A stretch of DNA of 64,000 nucleotides from Paragyromitra xinjiangensis (taxonomy: Eukaryota; Ascomycota; Pezizomycetes; Pezizales; Discinaceae): positions 3,286,001 to 3,350,000 of the forward strand of contig JBCAMK010000001.1 of assembly GCA_038503065.1 (NCBI GenBank), given 5' to 3'. Shown here piece by piece: positions 53,897-64,000 of the stretch (positions are counted from its first letter, which is position 1; each line of letters begins with the position of its first letter). The position numbers and the translations under genes were made by a program. Below the pieces are notes generated by a model, which was given only the letters and a program-made list of their open reading frames with translations, did no database searches and was not told the origin of the DNA.

Positions 53897-54661
53897 CTAG
53901 CCGTTCTCTCTTTCTCCTTCGCTCTCTTCCTCTTCATCGTTGTAGAGGTATATTCCTTGGTGGGAGTACCTGTTGTCTTCTTGTCGTTCCAGGGTCCAAT
54001 TTCTGGTAGCGATTTGGGTTGGTGTGAGGAATGTTTCAATGGTGGCAGCCAGGCCAGCATTGGTATGCATCGCAGTTCTCCATGTGAGTGGCATTGGTTT
54101 AAGGGCTGCTTTGAGTGCTTTGCGATGGGTAGGAAGTGGTTCCTGGCCACACTCTAGCAGTAGGTGTTGTGGTGTTTGGTTATCGAAGCCACATTTGCAT
54201 TTGGTGTCTTCAATGTTGTTGGTAGGGATTCTGGCGAGGTACGATTTGGTGTATCCATGTCCGGTTCTCATTTGAGTGATGGTGGAGGCTGTTCTTCTGG
54301 GGATGTTTCCCCTCAGCGGGGCACTTGGTTTCAGTGCTGGTTGTCCGTAGTAGCTGCGGCCTTTCTTTGCCTGCTTCCATTTGGCTTTCCATGTCGTCAG
54401 GGAGTGTTCCTTGATGTTTCTCTTGAGGTATGTGATGGAGGTGAGGACATCTGATTCTATCCTGGTTCCTTGGGCTCCTATCTTGGCGAGCTTATCAGCT
54501 AGCTTGTTGCCGGCAACGTTGACATGTCCTGGTACCCAGTAAACATGGGTTTTGATGCCACTGTCTTCGAGTTGAAGCAAGTTGTTGCGGGCTTCAATGA
54601 CCAGGTGTTGCATCAGCAAAAAAAAAAAGGCGCCCAGAAGGGTAACATTGCATAATGGCAT
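53897..54661 (-). pseudogene. 3' end of a LINE polyprotein: RNase H plus zinc-knuckle
   Basis: A 254-residue frame with the end of an RNase H domain (YWVPGHVNVAGNKLADKLAK) and the C-terminal zinc-binding element CKCGFDNQTPQHLLLECG, typical of Tad1/CgT1-like non-LTR retrotransposons. Everything 5' of the RNase H (endonuclease, reverse transcriptase) is missing, consistent with 5' truncation. The break lies at a run of A (54619-54628 on the plus strand), so the first residues (MPLCNVTLLGAFFF) are not part of the domain. Its sequence differs from the RNase H fragment at 49550, so two different LINE families are represented. Confidence 0.65.
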
Positions 54662-55078
54662 CCGGACCGTCCAGAGGACATTCTTGCGTCCTCAACACTT
54701 CCAGACGACCTTACAGCGTCCGGCAACCGCCTGGATGAGCTTCTCACACCGGCCCGTCTTCCAGACGATCTGGCTGTGTTTTGTGCTGTTGCTAAGTATT
54801 AGACCCCCTTCCAGAAGTTCTCTCCGCCCCTAGCGCTATTCCTGACGACCTCTCTGCATCCGGCACCCCCCTCCAGGCTTCCATCTTACTGTATCATCTA
54901 GGACTCTTTTTGTTCAGCTCGCCTTGGATCAAAGTGTCACTGGCGCCTCTTTACTATATGGTATTGCACTACTGCTGGAAGGGGTTTTGCTTCGCCTGAA
55001 GAATATTATGAATTTAGATCCTGATACAGCAACGACCTCTAGCAGGTCGGCAACTAGCTACATACACACATAGCTCGC
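54662..55078. other. subterminal region left of the Plavaka transposase
   Basis: Contains repeated CTTCCAGACGAYCTK- and GCATCCGGC-like short motifs (54700-54880) and a hairpin at 55033-55050 (CGACCTCTAGCAGGTCGG). In reverse complement this resembles the hairpins of the array right of the accessory gene. Probably the left end region of the transposon; exact ends were not identified. Confidence 0.45.
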
Positions 55079-55222
55079 CTAATAGATGTCGTTGAAAGTT
55101 TCTAAATCTATTCTACTATTTACAAGCCATTGATCTCCTTCGCCCTCTTGAATGAGGTGGGCCATGCCTGTAATTGAAGCCACGCTGATAACCCATTCGT
55201 CACTGCCAGGTGTGCTGATCTT

Positions 55223-58090
55223 TCATGCAGTAACCCTTACTAGGCTGCTGTCGGCCTCTAGGCGTCCGGCACCGTCCACTCGAAGCATTCTTACTAAAGC
55301 TAATCGATGACTATATCCTGTCGTAGGATCCCGCAGTTTGAATATACATCTCAATTGGCCTGGCAACCTCCCACGCAAGGCACCAAACTGGCTGTCATCA
55401 CCCACGGCCACCCACACCCAATCATTTCTTGGCTCGGCACCTCGAAATCGCCCGCCAATTGTACAGCGAAGACGATGAATAGTGTATAAATCAGTCTCCT
55501 GGAATTTTAGTACTGGGAGTTGGAGTTGTGTGAATCGCTTGATTGGGTACTGTAGCAATCTCTGTTCATTCGTTGACAGCTTCTGAGGGTCTGGCAGGCC
55601 TTTGTTGCTGTAGTCCACAATCTTCTGCACAATTTGATTCTCTCGATCGCCAAGCTCCTCCGCCAGATCCTTCAATGACCTCATCGTTTTGGGGTTGACA
55701 AGACCACGTAGCACTCGAGGTGGTCGAGATTCCGATTGGATACTGCAGTCAGAGAGGATAGGCGTCTTTTCTTTCCTCAGCAGGTCCATTACCTCCTCTC
55801 CAAGATCCTCTGCTGACTTCCCACGAGCTGCCTCCCGAATCCCAATTACATGCATTGCCATTGTGTGGCGGCGAGAGTAGTGTTCGAGTATCTGCTTAGT
55901 GGCATTATTCTTATTTGACGCACGATATCCAACCTTGATTTGCTGCTGATGGGAGACTTCGCCGACTTCTGTGGAGTAGCTGGGTATATTGCCAAACCGC
56001 CTGACATGGGTGGTAAAATGGGTCAAAAGGTGCATCTTGATGAAGTTGAAATGGGATTCTTGGCGATAGATATCCTGTAGCTGCTCTGATCTCTCGAGTC
56101 GATCCTGTGTATTCGCTTTACGCTTCTTTGCCGTACTCTGAGCAGTCGGCACCAACCTTTCTTGTGCTAGTCGGAGGGTGGTATCTGCTTGTTTCGCTTT
56201 AGCAGTTGCCTTCTTTGACTTTCGAAACTCAAGGAAGACATCCTTATGATCATGAAACCTCTTCAAATAGCCCTCCATATATCCAAGAGTTTGTTCCGTA
56301 TGACTACGGTACTGCGCCATTAGGTGGAAGTCTAGAAGGGCCTGGGTACAGTGGAGCGCTTCTTTGAATGCCGGCCTCTCAGAAGCCGTCGGTTTCCTCA
56401 GAGCGACAGTCAATGCTGCTAGTAGAAACCGCCCCAGATTCCTCATCTCTTTTCCTTGCCATTGGCTAACTTCTCGATAGGCTCTTCTAGGGATAGTAAT
56501 ACCAGTATATGGGGGAATGGATTTCCATACTTTATCGAATTGGTCGAGGCGATTGTGCTTGGTGAGGAAGCCTTGCACCCACTCCATCAAATGCTTCAAT
56601 AATCCGAGGTAGATGTTGTGGAGAAGGTCTGGCTTCCAGAGCTCTTCTGGCCGGACCCTGGGAAGCCGCCAAAAGCTGTTCATTGCTGCTTTCAGGCCTC
56701 GCTCCTGCAGCCAATCTAGATTCTCAATGTCGCCGGTATCTTCAAATTGCTGCGCCTTGGCCTTATACTCTTCGTGGCTGCGGGTTTTAAAGACGGAGAG
56801 AGATAAGTGACCTAGATTCTCGTGATCAATCTCACACACAGGGCATGAGTTATTCTTCATGTGCTGTAGAGTGACGTGCTCAAGGTGGTCAGCGATCCAG
56901 CCACCAACCACTGGAAAGCAGAGTCGCAATTGACCATCAGAGCACGCCAGCTCAATGCCATTCGTTGCCGGCTCATAGAGAGCCGACAATACCTTATCCA
57001 TGACCAAGTCAAGGATTACTCGATTCCTCGCTCTTTGGGCTTCAGCTTCTTTCGCCTTCAGCTTGCCGAACTTAGGGGGGATAGGCAGAAGCGCTAGAAG
57101 AACCATGGCCATTGCTGAAGGTTTGTTTCGGACTGTGGATTTGATATTACCTATTGTCACGTAGATTGGCCAAGCCTTTTTGTCTCCAGAGAAGTTGGTG
57201 AGATGTGTTTGGTCTGATGCGCAAAGGACTGGAACTACCGTGGCGCCAGTCGGAAGAGTCTCCTATGGCCAGTTAGCAAATAGTGCCGGCTTCTAGGGAG
57301 TCGCAGGCGGCACCTGTAAATCCCACCACCAATCAGCTGTGTGGAGCTCTGAATACATGCGTTCACCAGCAGAGTTGAGCTCTCGCACAGGGGCATAAAC
57401 CATGTCTTTCGAATAGGCTGCTTGACCAAGCAAATATCGAATACAGACCATTGGATCGCGGTGTGCCAACACGAAAGATTCCCCATCTACCTCCTCCTCG
57501 ACAAACTCCCAGCTTGGTGCTCCAAAGGTTGTGGGCAGGTCTTCGAGGACCTTGTAAAGGGTGTAGGCGGACCGATAGGAGCCGGCACCTTGATATAAAC
57601 CTTTCTTGAAATAGTCTTCAATGCCAGCCTTCGTTGTTTTGGTGTCAATAAACCATTTTGCTAAGTGGAAGTCATAGGAGGTGTGGAATGGAAATATAGG
57701 ATCCTCGAGCAGTCTCTCCTGAGCGTCTTCAAAGTCAGCTACTTTGCCTGCCGACCTTCCAGCGTCCGGAAAGAAGGTATTGCTGGTCGCTGGAGCATGT
57801 GGTGAGGTGTAAGCCTCGTTCTCCTCATCAGATTCTCCTGCTAGCTCTTCGTTTGAGTCGTACTCCAGCGGGATATCCAGAGCGCCTTCGACACCCCAAT
57901 CCTTGCCCTCTGAGTCTTCGTTAGATTCCCACTTATGAAAGGTAGGCTCCGGCCGCCTAGAGGTCGGTATACTGCTAAATAAACTTGGGAAACACTGTCT
58001 ACCTAGTTGCTCGTGTCTACTTCTAATATGGCTCTCCCAAGCAGTACCATAGAAGTAAGTATTTCGACAGAAAGGGCAAGTTTGAGGCAT
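55223..58090 (-). CDS. Plavaka-type (KDZ-like) DNA transposase
   Basis: Exons 57314..58090 and 55223..57262, joined over a 51-base intron (GTGCCG...CCATAG), give 938 residues. The N-terminus is a C2H2 finger (CPFCRNTYFYGTAWESHIRS, completed by RH), followed by an acidic linker. The junction restores LPTGATVVPVLCASDQTHLT and then KAWPIYVTIGNI, the arrangement seen in Plavaka-family transposases. Later are a Cys pair (NNSCPVCEIDHENLGHLSLS), the conserved WKPDLLHNIYLGLLKHLMEW and NFIKMHLLTHF. The frame ends at TGA 55223-55225, but the same frame continues to 55079 with sequence matching the other copy's end (GMAHLIQEGEGDQWLVN), so this TGA looks premature, removing about 48 residues. Family assignment rests on remembered features, not a search. 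Confidence 0.78.
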
Positions 58091-58663
58091 AATTGATTGT
58101 TTGATACTGTGACGACTTCGTAGAGGTTGGAGGATTTGTGATTAGGGGTTGAAGGTGATTATTAGTAGGTGTTGTAGGTAGATAGCTGTGATATCGATTG
58201 GGAGCTGTGAGGATCGTGAGAATCAGGGGTTGACGTTGAGAAGAATGACTCAGCGACCACAGAGCCGCACAACACCTCTCCGTGAGGATCCTGCCACTCT
58301 GCCAGCGCTTTGAAATGTAAGATAATATCTCTTCAGCAGTTGACTAGTAATAAAACTCTTTACCGACCTACTAGAAGTCAGTGAATACATTTGCTGCGCT
58401 CGTAGGCTTCTCCGCGGAATGATGTCATTGCTGGTAAACCTAACCCTGGGCACTTGGTAAACACCAAACCTCCACCTCCTCTTTCAACTTGACCTCGCTC
58501 GTCTCAACCCCTCCTCCACTACCCCCCTCTACTGCCCCCCTCCACCAACCCTCCGCCAGCCTTTCAGCGACTGTTTGAGCTTTCAAGATAGTACCCCCTT
58601 CTCCCTCTGCTTTGAGCTCTTCGTTTCATGAAATTTGAGGTAGTAATATATAAGTCCCGCGCC
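58091..58663. promoter_or_regulatory. divergent promoter of the two transposon genes
   Basis: The 570 bases between the transposase start and the accessory gene start, which point away from each other. CT-rich near the accessory start (58480-58560). Presumably drives both genes of the element. Confidence 0.5.
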
Positions 58664-60478
58664 ATGGCGACTCCCAAGAAAACAGCAGAATCGAGCAAAG
58701 CAAACACTTCGTGGAAAGCAGTCAATAAGCCAAACACCAAGCTTAGGGTTCCTAATACTCCACCACGAACTTCACCACCCCCCAACGAGTCGCAGGCGAC
58801 TCCCAATATTTCGAATAATCCATACAGCCTTACCCCCTCCTCCACCCAGGGCCGCTCACCGGGACTACCCCGCAAAAGCCACTCTATCCCACCATCAGAC
58901 TCTTCGCCAGTATCTTCACGGGGCTCTTCGCCACAACTTCCTTCAACAGCCTCTACTCCTAAGTCGCCGACCTCCAGCAAGCCGACAGAAGCCCGCAAAC
59001 ACATGGCTCCGCGTGCTAAGGCTGGCGCAGCAGCTCCAGCTGCCCATGCTAGAGCTACTGAAATGACAGCTACCGAGTTCAAAGCGGTTTTAGGCTTTGA
59101 TGCAAGCAACAATCAAGCTTATATGATCGTTCGGGACGATATCAACGCTTTTTGCCTTCAGAACGGTATTACTGGCGTTGATACCCCCGGTAGAGAAGCT
59201 TGGGCGACCTGTGGGGGGCGGGCAATAAACCACAAGTACCTCTCTCGCTTCCGTCAGGCCTGGAACGGTGTTGGGCCTGCGGAAAATACTGCCATTGTGC
59301 AGAAAGCCGTCAAAAATCTTTGCATCGACTCCATCAAGAAGAAGAATGCTGCTAGAGCACTAGCAGATCGGCAAATGGCAGACAATGGCGACAACGATGG
59401 AGTTGCCGCCGGCCCCGCTGCAGTCGGCGCTGCTCCTGCCCCCCAGACGGTATCTATTGTTGTTCGTATCGTTGACCCTGATGACATTGGCGGCCATAGA
59501 AACAATCGGGATATCCCCCGTGATGGATCGGGATATGCTTGGACCAATGGAACGTATTGCTACCGTAAGTTGACGACCTTCACGCGGCTGGTGCACCTTC
59601 ACGATATCCTCGCATACGGCATGAAGCATGCGCCTGATCGCCATCCCCGCTCAGTATGGGGTGCCCTTGTTCCAATCCCTCCGGATGGGGAATTGGCACC
59701 TGAGCAGGAGTCTCTTCTGACAGAAGATAATGAGGTGATGGCCTGGCTGGAGGCGTCGACTGATGCTCGCCCAGTGTGCACTATAGTCCTCCATCGTCGA
59801 GCGACTGATGGTGCGGCAACCCCTCCCCAGACTCCGCCGCCCCCAGGCGAGCCGACACATCTTAGCAAGCGTTACTTTGCTGCTTTGGAGGAAGATTACC
59901 CCGAGGAGTCGTCGGATGATGAGCGTCCATTGAGGAAGAAGTTCAAGCCTCTTCCCCGGACAGATAAGGGCTTTCAGACGCGTGAGAGAAAGATACGGCA
60001 CCGAATTAGCCGTCAGCAGGCCATGCTAGCAGCGGTGAAAGTTAGGCACCAAGGGATCACTCCTGATGCTATGTTTTCGGACGAAGAAGGTTTTGTTGAG
60101 GAGTACATGTCGGCCTCTGGTAGGGCAGCAGCCAGAGCACAGGCAGCGGATCCTAAACCTACCAAAGCTGTCAAAGTCGTCAAAGCCGTGAAAGCCGTGA
60201 AAGCCAAAGCCGCCAAAGTCGCCAAAGTCACCAAAGTCGCCAAAGCCACCAAAGCTAAAGCTACAAAAGCTGCTCCGAAGAAGGTCGCAGTGGACGTTGA
60301 AGAGGCCGGAAATGACGACTACGAGGATGACGGCGGCGGCAACAACCTTGAAGACGATGCCGAAGGCGATGGCTACGACGACACTATTATAGTCATTCCT
60401 CCGGAGATTCTTGAAGGGGTGCAGTTGGATGAGGATTCGGAGGATTTGGATGCAGTGGAGGTGGTGGTGGCCCAGTAA
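58664..60478 (+). CDS. transposon accessory nuclear-type protein, unknown family
   Basis: A single-exon gene of 604 residues from ATG 58664, whose context GCGCCATGGCG is much better than that of the in-frame ATG 12 codons upstream. I do not recognise the family. Residues 1-125 are Ser/Pro-rich and disordered. About 135-230 is a compact, probably helical domain (TEFKAVLGFDASNNQAYMIV, GRAINHKYLSRFRQAWNGVG). About 270-400 is a second folded region (VSIVVRIVDPDDIGGHRNN, LVHLHDILAYGMKH, VCTIVLHRR). Then come a basic helix (TRERKIRHRISRQQAMLA), a histone-H1-like KAVKAKAAKVAKVTKV tail (about 498-541) and an acidic end. It is divergent from the transposase and enclosed by the same hairpin repeats, so it is probably carried by the element, perhaps as a DNA-binding helper. 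Confidence 0.65.
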   Translation: MATPKKTAESSKANTSWKAVNKPNTKLRVPNTPPRTSPPPNESQATPNISNNPYSLTPSSTQGRSPGLPRKSHSIPPSDSSPVSSRGSSPQLPSTASTPKSPTSSKPTEARKHMAPRAKAGAAAPAAHARATEMTATEFKAVLGFDASNNQAYMIVRDDINAFCLQNGITGVDTPGREAWATCGGRAINHKYLSRFRQAWNGVGPAENTAIVQKAVKNLCIDSIKKKNAARALADRQMADNGDNDGVAAGPAAVGAAPAPQTVSIVVRIVDPDDIGGHRNNRDIPRDGSGYAWTNGTYCYRKLTTFTRLVHLHDILAYGMKHAPDRHPRSVWGALVPIPPDGELAPEQESLLTEDNEVMAWLEASTDARPVCTIVLHRRATDGAATPPQTPPPPGEPTHLSKRYFAALEEDYPEESSDDERPLRKKFKPLPRTDKGFQTRERKIRHRISRQQAMLAAVKVRHQGITPDAMFSDEEGFVEEYMSASGRAAARAQAADPKPTKAVKVVKAVKAVKAKAAKVAKVTKVAKATKAKATKAAPKKVAVDVEEAGNDDYEDDGGGNNLEDDAEGDGYDDTIIVIPPEILEGVQLDEDSEDLDAVEVVVAQ

Positions 60479-60559
60479 GTATCGCTGCCGGCTCCACTGA
60501 GGTCGCCAACCGTACGATAGAGTTTTTTTTTTTTTTATTCTAGATAGGGGTATGGTATT

Positions 60560-61032
60560 GTATTTTTTAGAGGATAGGTGTCGGCTTGCTGGAAGCTGGC
60601 GGGGTTTTCTTTATTTTTTCTTTTTTGGGCTTTCTTATGTGACTTGGGTTTGGGTATATCGGTGGATGCAGGATTTCTATTACTCGTCGGTAAGCTATCC
60701 CCTCCTCTGCTGACGAAGCCAGTGATTAATTACTATTCGGGGTGGGATCAGGCAAAGCGTTTACCGGCCTCTGGAAGGCCGGATTGTACTCCTTACTATT
60801 TTGCTCATTATTAGCGTTATTACTACTACTACTACACTACTACTATTATTTTTCGACTTTGGGCTTGGGTATATCGGTGGATGCAGGATTTCTATTACTC
60901 GTCGGTAAGCTATTCCCTCCTCTGCTGACGAAGCCAGTGATTAATTACTATTCGGGGTGGGATCAGGCAAAGCGTTTACCGGCCTCTGGAAGGCCGGATT
61001 GTACTCTTTACTATTCTCCTTATTATTAGCGT

Positions 61033-61079
<47 letters not shown>

Positions 61080-61830
61080 TTATTTGACTTTGGGCTGGGG
61101 TATATCGGTGGATGCAGGATTTCTATTACTCGTCGGTAAGCTATCACCTCCTTTGCTGACGAAGCCAGTGATTAATTGCTATTCGAGGTGGGATCAAGCA
61201 AGGCGTTTACCAGCCTCTGGGAGGCCGGATTGTACCTATTCCTATCCTCTTTATTATTATTATCACTGCGGTTATCATTATTCTCCTTTGGTTGGGCTGT
61301 ATGCCAAATATCTATTACTTACCAGTAAGCCACTATTCCCTCCACTATTCCCTCCTCTTGACGTACGCGTAGCGATTAGTAGCTGAATATGGGTTGAGAA
61401 TAGCGTATGCCGGCCTATGAGAGGTCGGCTTGTATCATTATACTTATTCTCGTCCATATGGGGTGTTTTCTGCTTTCCTATCCTTTATCATCAATAATTG
61501 ACTCTAGTCGCGTATCAAGTATGGTGTACGCCGACCCCATAGAAGTCGGCATGTATTATTATTATTATTAATATTATTATTAATATTATTATGACCCTGA
61601 TTTTGTATCTCTATTTGCTGGGCGCAGGATATCTATTATTCGCTGGTAAGCCATTCTCTTTGGTTCCTGAATTTGTTGAGATTGATAGCTGACTTCGGTG
61701 TGGATCAAGAGTTCTGCGCGCCGGCCTCCTAGAGGCTGGCACAGACCTACTCTCGTCCAATTCCGGAGATTCGCCGCTACGGAAGCTATCAATCGTGTAT
61801 ATCATCCAAGCGTTCCGGCAGTCAAAGCGC
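60560..61830. repeat. degenerate tandem array of about 200-base units with hairpins
   Basis: Units start near 60641, 60855 and 61085 (consensus GGTATATCGGTGGATGCAGG, then CGTCGGTAAGCTAT and GACGAAGCCAGTGATTAATT), with more diverged units after 61290 and at 61593. Each holds a hairpin: 60764-60782 and 60979-60997 (CCGGCCTCTGGAAGGCCGG), 61210-61228, 61409-61429, 61530-61550 and 61720-61740. Each is followed by a TTATTACTACTAC-type microsatellite of variable length. An older piece (GGCTTGCTGGAAGCTGGC) lies near 60583. Confidence 0.85.
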
Positions 61831-61982
61831 GCTTGTAGCCCTTTAGGTTAACCGTGCCGTGTTAACACACTTGTTTACTTAGCTCTTCCAGCAGCTCCAG
61901 CTCCCAGCAGCTCCTCTCCGGCCTCCCACAGTCCGGCCCTCTTCACTCGTAAATCCTCCTTTCCCCATCACATCCAACAAAA

Positions 61983-62501
61983 ATGGCAAGAAATAATAGT
62001 ATCAACAGCCGAAGCAATGTTTCTAAAACTAAGCAAACTACAGGAATCATCCGTCCTCCGCCTCAACGCCGAGCCACTCTCCGGCAAACATATGCCACAG
62101 AGGTAGAGAATCACGTAGAAGTGGAGCAAGAGCAGGGGCAGGAGGAGGAGTATGAGGACGAGGACGAGGGGGAGGAGCATGAGGAGGACGAAGAGGACGA
62201 GGACCGGTGCGATTCCGGGGCTGACGAGGAATTGCCGGACCATCCAGGGTCGGCAGCCTCCTCTCAGAAGCTGCAGCATCAAAAAGTAACTGCAAAACAC
62301 AGAGAAATGCATCAGCAAGACCGAAATTTCGCCCTGATACTTCGCTGCTGCGTCAGGACACACTATTTTCGTCATGTGAATCTGGAGCGTCCTGAGTGCC
62401 TGCAGCGTTCTGACGGATGCTCTGGGAGCCAGCTGCGCCCTGTTTATCAGAGGCTTATTTGCTTGCGTCAGGTTCTCCATATGCTGCAACGCAGGCTCTG
62501 A
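61983..62501 (+). CDS. hypothetical acidic protein or fragment
   Basis: A frame of 172 residues, start MARNNSINSRSNVSKTKQTT. The first 45 residues are basic and polar; then a long Glu/Asp run (EQGQEEEYEDEDEGEEHEED) occurs; the last 70 residues look non-coding. The start has a CT-rich upstream region similar to that of the accessory gene at 58664. It may be the 5' end of another element gene interrupted by the second transposon copy. No family recognised. Confidence 0.3.
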   Translation: MARNNSINSRSNVSKTKQTTGIIRPPPQRRATLRQTYATEVENHVEVEQEQGQEEEYEDEDEGEEHEEDEEDEDRCDSGADEELPDHPGSAASSQKLQHQKVTAKHREMHQQDRNFALILRCCVRTHYFRHVNLERPECLQRSDGCSGSQLRPVYQRLICLRQVLHMLQRRL

Positions 62502-62677
62502 AGTCACTGAGATTGACGCGGGTAATCATGGTATATCGGAGACTTGATGGCTATTGGATCATTCTTTCTTGCTCTGGAGATCATCGCGAAGGCTTCTGAC
62601 GCTTTCTATCAAACATGCTTTATTAATCAAGCTAGCTCTTACTCCTAGTATAGCTCGTTCCATGTTCTAAGATCTAT

Positions 62678-64000
62678 TCATGTATTTACAAGCCAATCAT
62701 TTTGCCCTAGCGGCATCAAATGTGCCATTCCTAATACACTCCTGATATCCACCACCCACAGCTTCCTTGGAGAGCGCTTAGAGGCTTTGAGAAGGCCATG
62801 GGAGCTATCTACTGATCCCCTATTGGCTGCCTCTAAAACCTCCACTAGGCACAACCTGTGCCAATGGCTGCTTATGGGATTGCGAAGCTTAAATAATGCC
62901 TGAAGTCTAGCTGGCAGGCGCCCCCGGAATGCCCCCCAATTCTCCTCCGACCCTGCTTGTATCCAGACCCAGTCATTTCGTGGCGCTCTATTCCTAAACT
63001 TCCTCCGCCCTGTGCAGCGAAGGTTATGGACCTCGTATAGATCAGTTTCTTGAAAAGTCGGGATGGGAACTTGCAAACATTCAAATCGTTCTGCCGGATA
63101 GTGGAGAAGGTTTTGTGGGTCTTCGCCAAAGCCCTCAGAGCCTTCTACATCCTTTGCCCACTCCAGGATACTTTTTCCAAGGTTGTATCGGTCCAGTTCG
63201 AGTGCCTCAGCGACATCTGCGTGGAAGCAACAGTCGTGATCCTGGTTTTTAAGGTTGCGCCGCGGCAGGCTTTCCGGATGTAATGCCTTGATATTCGGTG
63301 CCCGTTCTTTGCCTATACCAAACAACTGTTGCAAAGTCTTTGCAGAGCCAAGAGAGCTCTCGGCATAACTCTCAGAGCTTTCTACAATTGCTTTCAGGTT
63401 TAGCAATCGCATCTCGAAGGCTTGACGACGGGCATATATATCGAGGATCTGGAGCGTGGCATCAACTTTGTTGGATGCCTTATAGCTATCTTTGATTTGC
63501 TCTTTGTGTGCAAGCTCGCTAATATCAGTAGAGAACATGGGTATGTTACCAAATCATTCCACATGCTGGCAGAAGTGCGTGAGGAGTTGCATCTTGATAA
63601 AGTTGAAATGAGAGGCTTGACGGATTTCCTGAAGCTCCTCAAGGCTGCGGTCAAGGCTCCCTGAGCCATCCTGGGTCTTCCTCCGCTTGTTGCCTTGGGC
63701 TGTGTTGGTTGCAGCCGACGCGGAGGTGGAAGGAGCCTGCAGAGCATCCATTAGTGCCTTTGTTCGTTCCTTTGCTGCTTTCTTCGTCTTCTTTTATGCT
63801 CGGAATTCCAGAAACACATCTTTATGCTCGTGGAAATCCTCCAAATACCCCTTCATATATCCCAACGTTTCCGAGGTGTGGGTGTTGTATTGCGCCATAA
63901 GGTGAAAGTCCACAAATGAGCGAACACATATCAGCGCCTTCTTGAAGATATCTTTGTACTTTTTCAGGGGATCCCTGAGAGCTATGGCGAAGGCTCCCAG
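62678..64000 (-). pseudogene. second Plavaka-type transposase copy, decayed, runs off the right edge
   Basis: A paralog of the transposase at 55223-58090, in the same orientation. The frame reads LMAQYNTHTSETLGYMKGYL..., then TAA at 63794-63796, KKTKKAAKERTKALMDAL, then TGA at 63554-63556 (where the first copy has Arg, in HVRRFGNIP versus HVE*FGNIP), and onward MFSTDISELAHKEQIKDSYK to the true end GMAHLMPLGQNDWLVNT at 62678. Both stops are in the one continuous frame, with no frameshift between them. The N-terminal half lies outside the window. Divergence from the first copy is large, so this is a different subfamily, not a recent duplicate. Confidence 0.75.

Follow-up and report, generated by a model that had tools for sequence, protein, structure and literature searches.

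The stretch of DNA analysed here (the window) comprises 64,000 nucleotides of the 48.2 Mb genome of Paragyromitra xinjiangensis, C1:3286001-3350000; plain positions refer to the window, and positions with a prefix such as C1: refer to contigs. From 54611 onwards the window is occupied by a Plavaka DNA transposon, termed element 1, which carries a transposase gene, an accessory gene that diverges from it and a third gene, and which is interrupted by a second Plavaka, termed element 2. Palindromes of 21 base pairs (bp) with a rigid internal spacing are distributed along the whole of element 1. The features are as follows, with + and - denoting the strand.

54611..54635, +: left terminus of element 1, CATCAGC AAAAAAAAAA..., with the target duplication TG directly outside; from the alignment of copies and the empty site
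55223..57262, -: exon 2 of the Plavaka transposase; the portion from 57160 down is an open reading frame (ORF) with GTG as its first codon
57263..57313, -: predicted transposase intron of 51 bases, GT...AG; from the reading frames around 57100-57330
57314..58090, -: exon 1 of the Plavaka transposase, encoding an N-terminal C2H2-like finger; PF18759 match at E 2.6e-16
58091..58627: region between the divergent genes, presumed to hold their promoters; from the ORF positions
58628..60478, +: accessory gene, 616 residues; from the ORF, Pfam and alignments. The protein consists of N-terminal low-complexity sequence, a tri-helical domain (~145-245), a second domain (~275-396), a conserved block (~411-496), a Lys/Ala run and an acidic tail
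60644..61281: 192-base repeat in three copies, 215 and 231 bases apart from start to start, with palindromes at 60763, 60978 and 61209
61409..61429: perfect 21-bp palindrome GCCGRCYTNNNNNAGRYCGGC, one of 23 fixed-gap sites in 54611-62309
61983..62309, +: first exon of the third gene, cut by element 2; from DNA similarity to complete copies
62310..64000 and onward to C1:3368672: element 2, a second Plavaka inside element 1, with its left end CATCAGC at 62310

Aligning copies from the same genome, a route to the ends that an earlier note on this DNA had proposed, places the left end of element 1 at 54611. This start base is common to six other genomic copies (CATCAG[C/T]AAAA...), the upstream flanks of which are unrelated. 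The right end lies beyond the window at C1:3370698, where GCTGATG is followed by TG. Given the alignment of copies and the empty site, these two positions replace the ends at 54900 and 61830 given in the earlier note. Three copies in the genome are complete (8982, 8978, and 9076 bp), and all three have CATCAG...CTGATG ends and 2-bp duplications, namely TG, TA, and GA. No element boundary falls between 58090 and 58664, a position that the earlier note had regarded as counter-evidence, and the three complete copies span this interval. Similarity between the window and the complete copies extends to 62308, the CATCAGC terminus of element 2 follows at 62310, and element 1 resumes past element 2 at C1:3368675. 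Its length amounts to ~7699 + 2024 = 9.7 kilobases (kb), interrupted by ~20.4 kb containing further inserted repeats. The host of element 1 is the RNase H part of a retrotransposon (53897-54607, minus strand). When the outer flanks are joined with one TG, an uninterrupted RNase H-type reading frame results; the boundaries of element 1 are therefore firm, and the element must have entered the retrotransposon as one unit. The left flank alone matches RNase_H at E 0.00087, which is below the cut-off, and the remainder of the RNase H assignment was made by eye. By itself, the end motif GCTGATG is uninformative in the window, given 13 matches versus 8.6 expected.

PlavakaB elements are characterized, in the passages devoted to them by Kojima (2025; PMC12730594), by a PF18759 transposase, CATCA...TGATG termini, 2-bp duplications, and C(2)C and H(3-4)H motifs. 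Element 1 shares the transposase domain, the termini, the target duplications, and these residues. CATCA...TGATG termini are found in all three complete copies, at both ends of element 1 and in element 2, and all target duplications fall within the 2 or 3 bp expected of PlavakaB, with TG for both element 1 and element 2. The transposase gene lies on the minus strand, as had been recognized before, and reads as two exons; the corresponding ORFs both match PF18759 (cut-off 26.3 bits), that at 55223-57160 with E 1.3e-39 and 136.8 bits and that at 57293-58090 with E 2.6e-16 and 60.2 bits. D91, C106, C109, H377, H381, and E401 (numbering of the 57160 ORF) are invariant in 12 sequences and include the C(2)C and H(3-4)H residues ahead of the last E, while the identity of the catalytic acidic residues is presumed from the sequence. 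No KDZ domain matches the transposase ORFs at E 1 or better, and the relevant passages of Kojima (2025; PMC12730594) place Plavaka with the CACTA/EnSpm-Transib group, which does not agree with the KDZ/Plavaka grouping used in the earlier note. Across the genome, an in-frame TAG within the domain recurs in many PF18759 matches. The predicted intron overlaps a degenerate palindrome at 57285, visible only in a scan with variable gap. Over 289 codons of the transposase, the window and a copy on C11 differ by 0.06 nonsynonymous (dN) and 0.73 synonymous (dS) substitutions per site. A protein-database search with the transposase returned 183 matches; among the 120 listed, the closest named relative, with 64% identity over 67% of the query, comes from Maublancomyces gigas, and proteins of Morchella and Kalaharituber match as well.

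The accessory gene has two in-frame ATGs. Starting at 58664, it encodes the 604 residues given in the earlier note, whereas the upstream ATG at 58628 yields 616. The four closest relatives conserve the peptide encoded between these ATGs; the divergent plus-strand ORF is real, with a longer N-terminus than first proposed. Depending on the ATG chosen, the gap to the transposase gene is 537 or 573 bases, in line with the 570 bases reported previously for a shared promoter, a role that we presume. Nine copies of the accessory protein align with a conserved core. Comparison of the window copy with six relatives gives dN/dS ratios of 0.155-0.235 for this core; among the relatives, most pairs show 0.16-0.26 and one pair within a second subfamily 0.38, while nearly identical pairs (0.90 or undefined) are uninformative. 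These ratios indicate purifying selection on the core. Both the Lys/Ala tail and the acidic end described earlier are present. Among the nine aligned proteins, the long Lys/Ala run occurs only in the window copy; in the four closest relatives a shorter run rich in Ala, Arg and Lys is found, and the tails of the four second-subfamily members are mainly acidic.

According to the earlier note, the accessory protein resembled no recognizable family. This holds for the second domain (~275-396), which has no significant Pfam match, but not quite for the first, which weakly resembles Tri-helical (PF24465) below the cut-off of 27 bits (19.7 bits for the window protein and 23.6 for the domain alone). 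All five members of one alignment (A3) match Tri-helical at E 10 or better, with 5.4e-6 as the best value, and 6 of the 11 Tri-helical matches in the genome exceed the cut-off, all six of them outside the window clade. A second-subfamily member scanned whole (L007) gave no Tri-helical match at E 1. Relatives with 25-29% identity exist in other Plavaka families, where the second domain is recognizable in two loci (L030 and L067) and the tri-helical domain in one of them (L067). A sequence search of the PDB with the whole accessory alignment gave no match at E 1; those of single domains were weak and judged to be due to chance, the best being a major histocompatibility complex (MHC) class I chain for the second domain (E 0.0084). 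A scan of IMG/VR found no relative, and no Myb/SANT family matches the protein at E 1 or better.

To count linkage, we entered all 60 accessory-protein matches in the genome, 8 of the 11 Tri-helical rows (the other three being accessory loci already counted), 99 of the 125 PF18759 rows plus three DNA matches, and all 88 DUF6532 rows, which merge into 59 accessory, 100 transposase, and 80 DUF6532 loci; for large families, such counts are lower bounds. The 26 PF18759 rows dropped are pieces with an entered row on their strand at most 823 bases away. For comparison, the share of the genome that lies close to an entered transposase match is 2.2% for distances up to 5 kb and 3.8% for distances up to 10 kb, a calculation that took in one more of the 26 dropped rows. 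The nearest transposase lies within 8 kb, upstream and divergent, at 56 of the 59 accessory loci; no locus shows another arrangement, and three have no transposase within this distance. Of these, C1:3486138 has a DUF6532 match 2 kb away, C5:353220 has a transposase at ~10 kb, and C19:141575 belongs to a copy that an insertion has divided, of which it forms the right half. Both genes are present in complete copies with target duplications. Within this genome, these results bear out the suggestion of the earlier note that the accessory protein moves along with the transposase, and the situation that it named as contrary evidence, homologs residing mostly away from transposases, is not seen. We conclude that, in this genome, the accessory gene is an integral gene of the element, kept by selection and inherited with the transposase.

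The earlier note described a two-gene element and missed the third gene, which starts at 61983. The window holds only its first exon, and the assignment to DUF6532 (PF20149) comes from a relative, the copy on C17, rather than from element 1 itself. In this copy, a downstream exon matches DUF6532 with E 6.7e-10 and 39.6 bits (cut-off 24), an earlier exon matches below the cut-off (E 0.0043, 17.4 bits), and the middle piece of the gene has no DUF6532 match. Comparing the C17 copy with that at C1:1660k gives, for two stretches, dN ~0.10 with dS ~0.33 and dN 0.23 with dS 0.76, respectively; both stretches run from stop to stop and include some non-exon sequence. The nearest DUF6532 match downstream of the accessory loci, within 8 kb, is on the same strand in 42 of 59 cases and on the opposite strand in 2, with none in 15. 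Viewed from the 80 DUF6532 loci, a transposase lies upstream and divergent within 12 kb at 51, in other arrangements at 10, and is missing from this range at 19. DUF6532 is linked to the transposase less tightly than the accessory gene. Both partners accompany 41 of the 100 transposase loci, the accessory gene alone 16, DUF6532 alone 17, and neither 26. The order and orientation of the genes are conserved across families with only ~25-30% identity of the accessory protein.

The third property of element 1 is its palindrome array, in which GCCGRCYT, five bases, and AGRYCGGC form a 21-bp palindrome. With the gap fixed at 5 and 3 mismatches or fewer, 23 such sites are found in 54611-62309, and non-overlapping sites number 21-23 per element. 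The earlier note had seen hairpins enclosing the unit on both sides; the palindromes rather run throughout the element. In a looser scan with variable gap, the window part of element 1 holds 26 sites, compared to 5 in the 54.6 kb to its left. Allowing up to 3 mismatches and a variable gap, we obtained 24-27 sites in the window part and the three complete copies, whereas shuffled controls (20 each) had means of 1.8 to 2.65 and a maximum of 7. The spacing is rigid: a gap of 5 gives 20-23 raw matches per element, and every other gap from 0 to 20 gives 0-5. Noncoding sequence, which accounts for 35% of the length, contains 13 of the 23 window sites (one-sided p 0.03), and in the noncoding stretch 3' of the accessory gene the sites of the window copy are ~90-230 bases apart. 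Each of eleven second-subfamily loci contains 11-17 matches in ~5 kb. A genome-wide scan tolerating one mismatch at most gives 81 forward and 78 reverse rows versus 3 and 4 in a reversed control. Among the 59 distinct places listed, the palindrome is nearly confined to the window clade: at 53, one of the accessory genes of this clade is no more than 6 kb away, 5 lie within ~1.4 kb of DUF6532 matches and are taken for remnants, and only C10:531069 has no recorded Plavaka or DUF6532 match nearby. A variant palindrome pattern returned nothing genome-wide.

Taken together, we assign a probability of about 0.5 to the reading that element 1 is a three-gene, PlavakaB-type cut-and-paste transposon, the accessory protein of which is a putative DNA-binding partner recognizing the palindromes. 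Judging from its family, the DDE transposase would cut and join the CATCA...TGATG ends and leave the 2-bp duplications. The accessory protein would most likely act as a sequence-specific partner that recognizes the 21-bp palindromes along the element, probably as a dimer with one subunit per half-site. Once bound, it could mark the DNA of the element and help the transposase to bring the ends together, control the divergent promoter region, and perhaps counter silencing, while the DUF6532 protein would be a further component of the element. DNA binding or chromatin targeting by the accessory protein, which the earlier note had raised, is a plausible candidate role, for which the palindromes speak indirectly. 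More tentatively, the arrangement might constitute a marking system, in which the tri-helical protein binds a clade-specific palindrome array and keeps the element accessible for transcription and transposition, and in which each Plavaka clade has its own co-evolved pair of protein and site, in parallel to VANC.

Several observations weigh against the accessory protein as a palindrome-binding partner. Five loci of distant Plavaka families with accessory relatives have 0 sites in ~16.8 kb, and de novo counts in partial sequences (L027, L028, L030, L067, the start of element 2, and a control) revealed no convincing palindrome of their own for these families. Ten of the 23 fixed-gap window sites are located in coding sequence, and the excess in noncoding sequence is modest. 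At the thresholds used, the accessory gene goes undetected at 43 of the 100 transposase loci, and at 26 of them neither partner is detected. Searching the protein database with the accessory protein or the nine-copy alignment, each time with 7996 candidates, yielded nothing at E 0.001, which may reflect low-complexity words or a lack of relatives; fungal Plavaka transposases are present in the same database. An AlphaFold model of residues 140-420 from the single sequence was unusable, with a mean predicted local distance difference test (pLDDT) score of 38.1. Finally, the palindromes could also be read by the transposase, which has a zinc-finger-like N-terminus of its own, or by the DUF6532 protein, and nothing distinguishes between these candidates.

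Accordingly, other explanations must be weighed. The transposase might read the palindromes through its N-terminal zinc finger, leaving a different task to the accessory protein, for instance contact with chromatin or targeting to the nucleus. The C2H2-like finger (zf-C2H2_4, E 0.17, a weak match) speaks for this possibility, as does the fact that the transposase differs between families just like the accessory protein; however, the sites are spread over the full element and also occupy presumed introns and internal untranslated regions, whereas a transposase is expected to act near the ends, and we regard this explanation as doubtful. It is unlikely that the accessory and DUF6532 genes are captured host genes carried as passengers without a role in transposition: the accessory gene is detected at only 57 and a divergent DUF6532 gene at 58 of the 100 transposase loci, as passengers might be, but gene order and orientation are maintained between the distant families and the accessory core is under purifying selection. 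Less likely still, the palindromes could function at the RNA level, as hairpins that take part in, for instance, splicing or the formation of transcript ends, and several sites indeed fall into presumed introns of the third gene in the C17 copy or just past the accessory stop codon. Across 85 distinct sites with 2 mismatches or fewer, however, the degenerate paired positions show no covariation (Fisher p = 1 for both pairs), and at pair 5-17 the mismatched A-C occurs 23 times versus 31 for A-T; palindromes are also present in coding sequence and near the ends of the element. Since the degenerate positions vary independently, half-sites in protein-bound DNA fit better than an RNA hairpin, and we reject the latter. 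Chance proximity of the accessory gene as a neighbouring host gene is likewise rejected, given its presence in complete copies with target duplications, the single arrangement at 56 of 59 loci, and the empty site.

Our best reading of the accessory protein is that of a putative helper analogous to TnpA in Spm or to VANC in VANDAL, the latter being a different type of transposon from Plavaka. CACTA/Spm also combines a transposase with a second element protein (TnpD and TnpA) and many copies of a short motif, as stated in the relevant parts of PMC2613891, and belongs to the same broad transposase group as Plavaka according to those of PMC12730594. In contrast to element 1, where the second protein comes from a divergent gene and the motifs are element-wide, TnpA is made from alternatively spliced exons and its motifs are subterminal (PMC2613891). 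Arabidopsis VANDAL, as portrayed in passages of PMC5735166, has a further element gene, VANC, and short element-specific motifs in noncoding regions including introns. These motifs are multiplied by tandem repeats, to which the triplicated repeat at 60644-61281 with one palindrome per unit corresponds, but the motif of VANC21 has nine bases compared to 21 bp here (PMC5735166). Harbinger/Nuwa, as outlined in part of PMC12730594, likewise pairs a transposase with a separate DNA-binding protein; that protein is of the Myb/SANT type, for which the accessory protein gave no match.

The element type is known, while the three-gene order and the palindrome array appear to be new to the open-licence literature searched, in which we found no description of the two together (subscription papers, supplements, and Repbase were outside this scope). 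The passages of PMC12730594 on PlavakaB describe elements with or without a TET/JBP gene and mention no tri-helical gene, DUF6532 gene, or palindrome array; the TET-carrying ascomycete elements named there are Helitron and IS3EU. DUF6532 is named beside Plavaka in a domain list within PMC8955403, the sole paper that the literature search returned for this domain, and the passage of a Marasmius paper that names a Plavaka family is silent on its genes (PMC9674265). The order of transposase, tri-helical, and DUF6532 genes, found at 41 of 100 transposase loci in one genome, provides a context and a testable role for two protein families of unassigned function, with the palindromes as a concrete candidate ligand. 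Should the accessory protein bind them, fungi would have an equivalent of TnpA or VANC.

Further observations concern the spacing of the palindromes, the DUF6532 family, and element 2. Window-clade palindromes in the 3' noncoding sequence (60479-61982 and the complete copies) are often 165-230 bases apart, with other gaps of ~90 to 300; close to the start of their loci, those of L040 are 131-148 bases apart, and L045 has intervals of 151, 269, and 150. A link to nucleosome spacing would be a guess. The four best DUF6532 matches (C17:909083, C13:881244, C11:1436876, and C1:2002679) have open frames of 221-242 residues, and the nearest entered transposase is ~8 kb away from the first and 15-27 kb from the other three; they possibly belong to long or split elements, or are independent genes. 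The transposase of element 2 is encoded on the minus strand (62678-63538 and onward), and the element ends at C1:3368672 with GCTGATG followed by TG, giving TG duplications. Element 2 is itself broken by other repeats, and positions 313-1348 of L062 match, at 98.7%, sequence adjoining the transposase of another Plavaka copy (L047).

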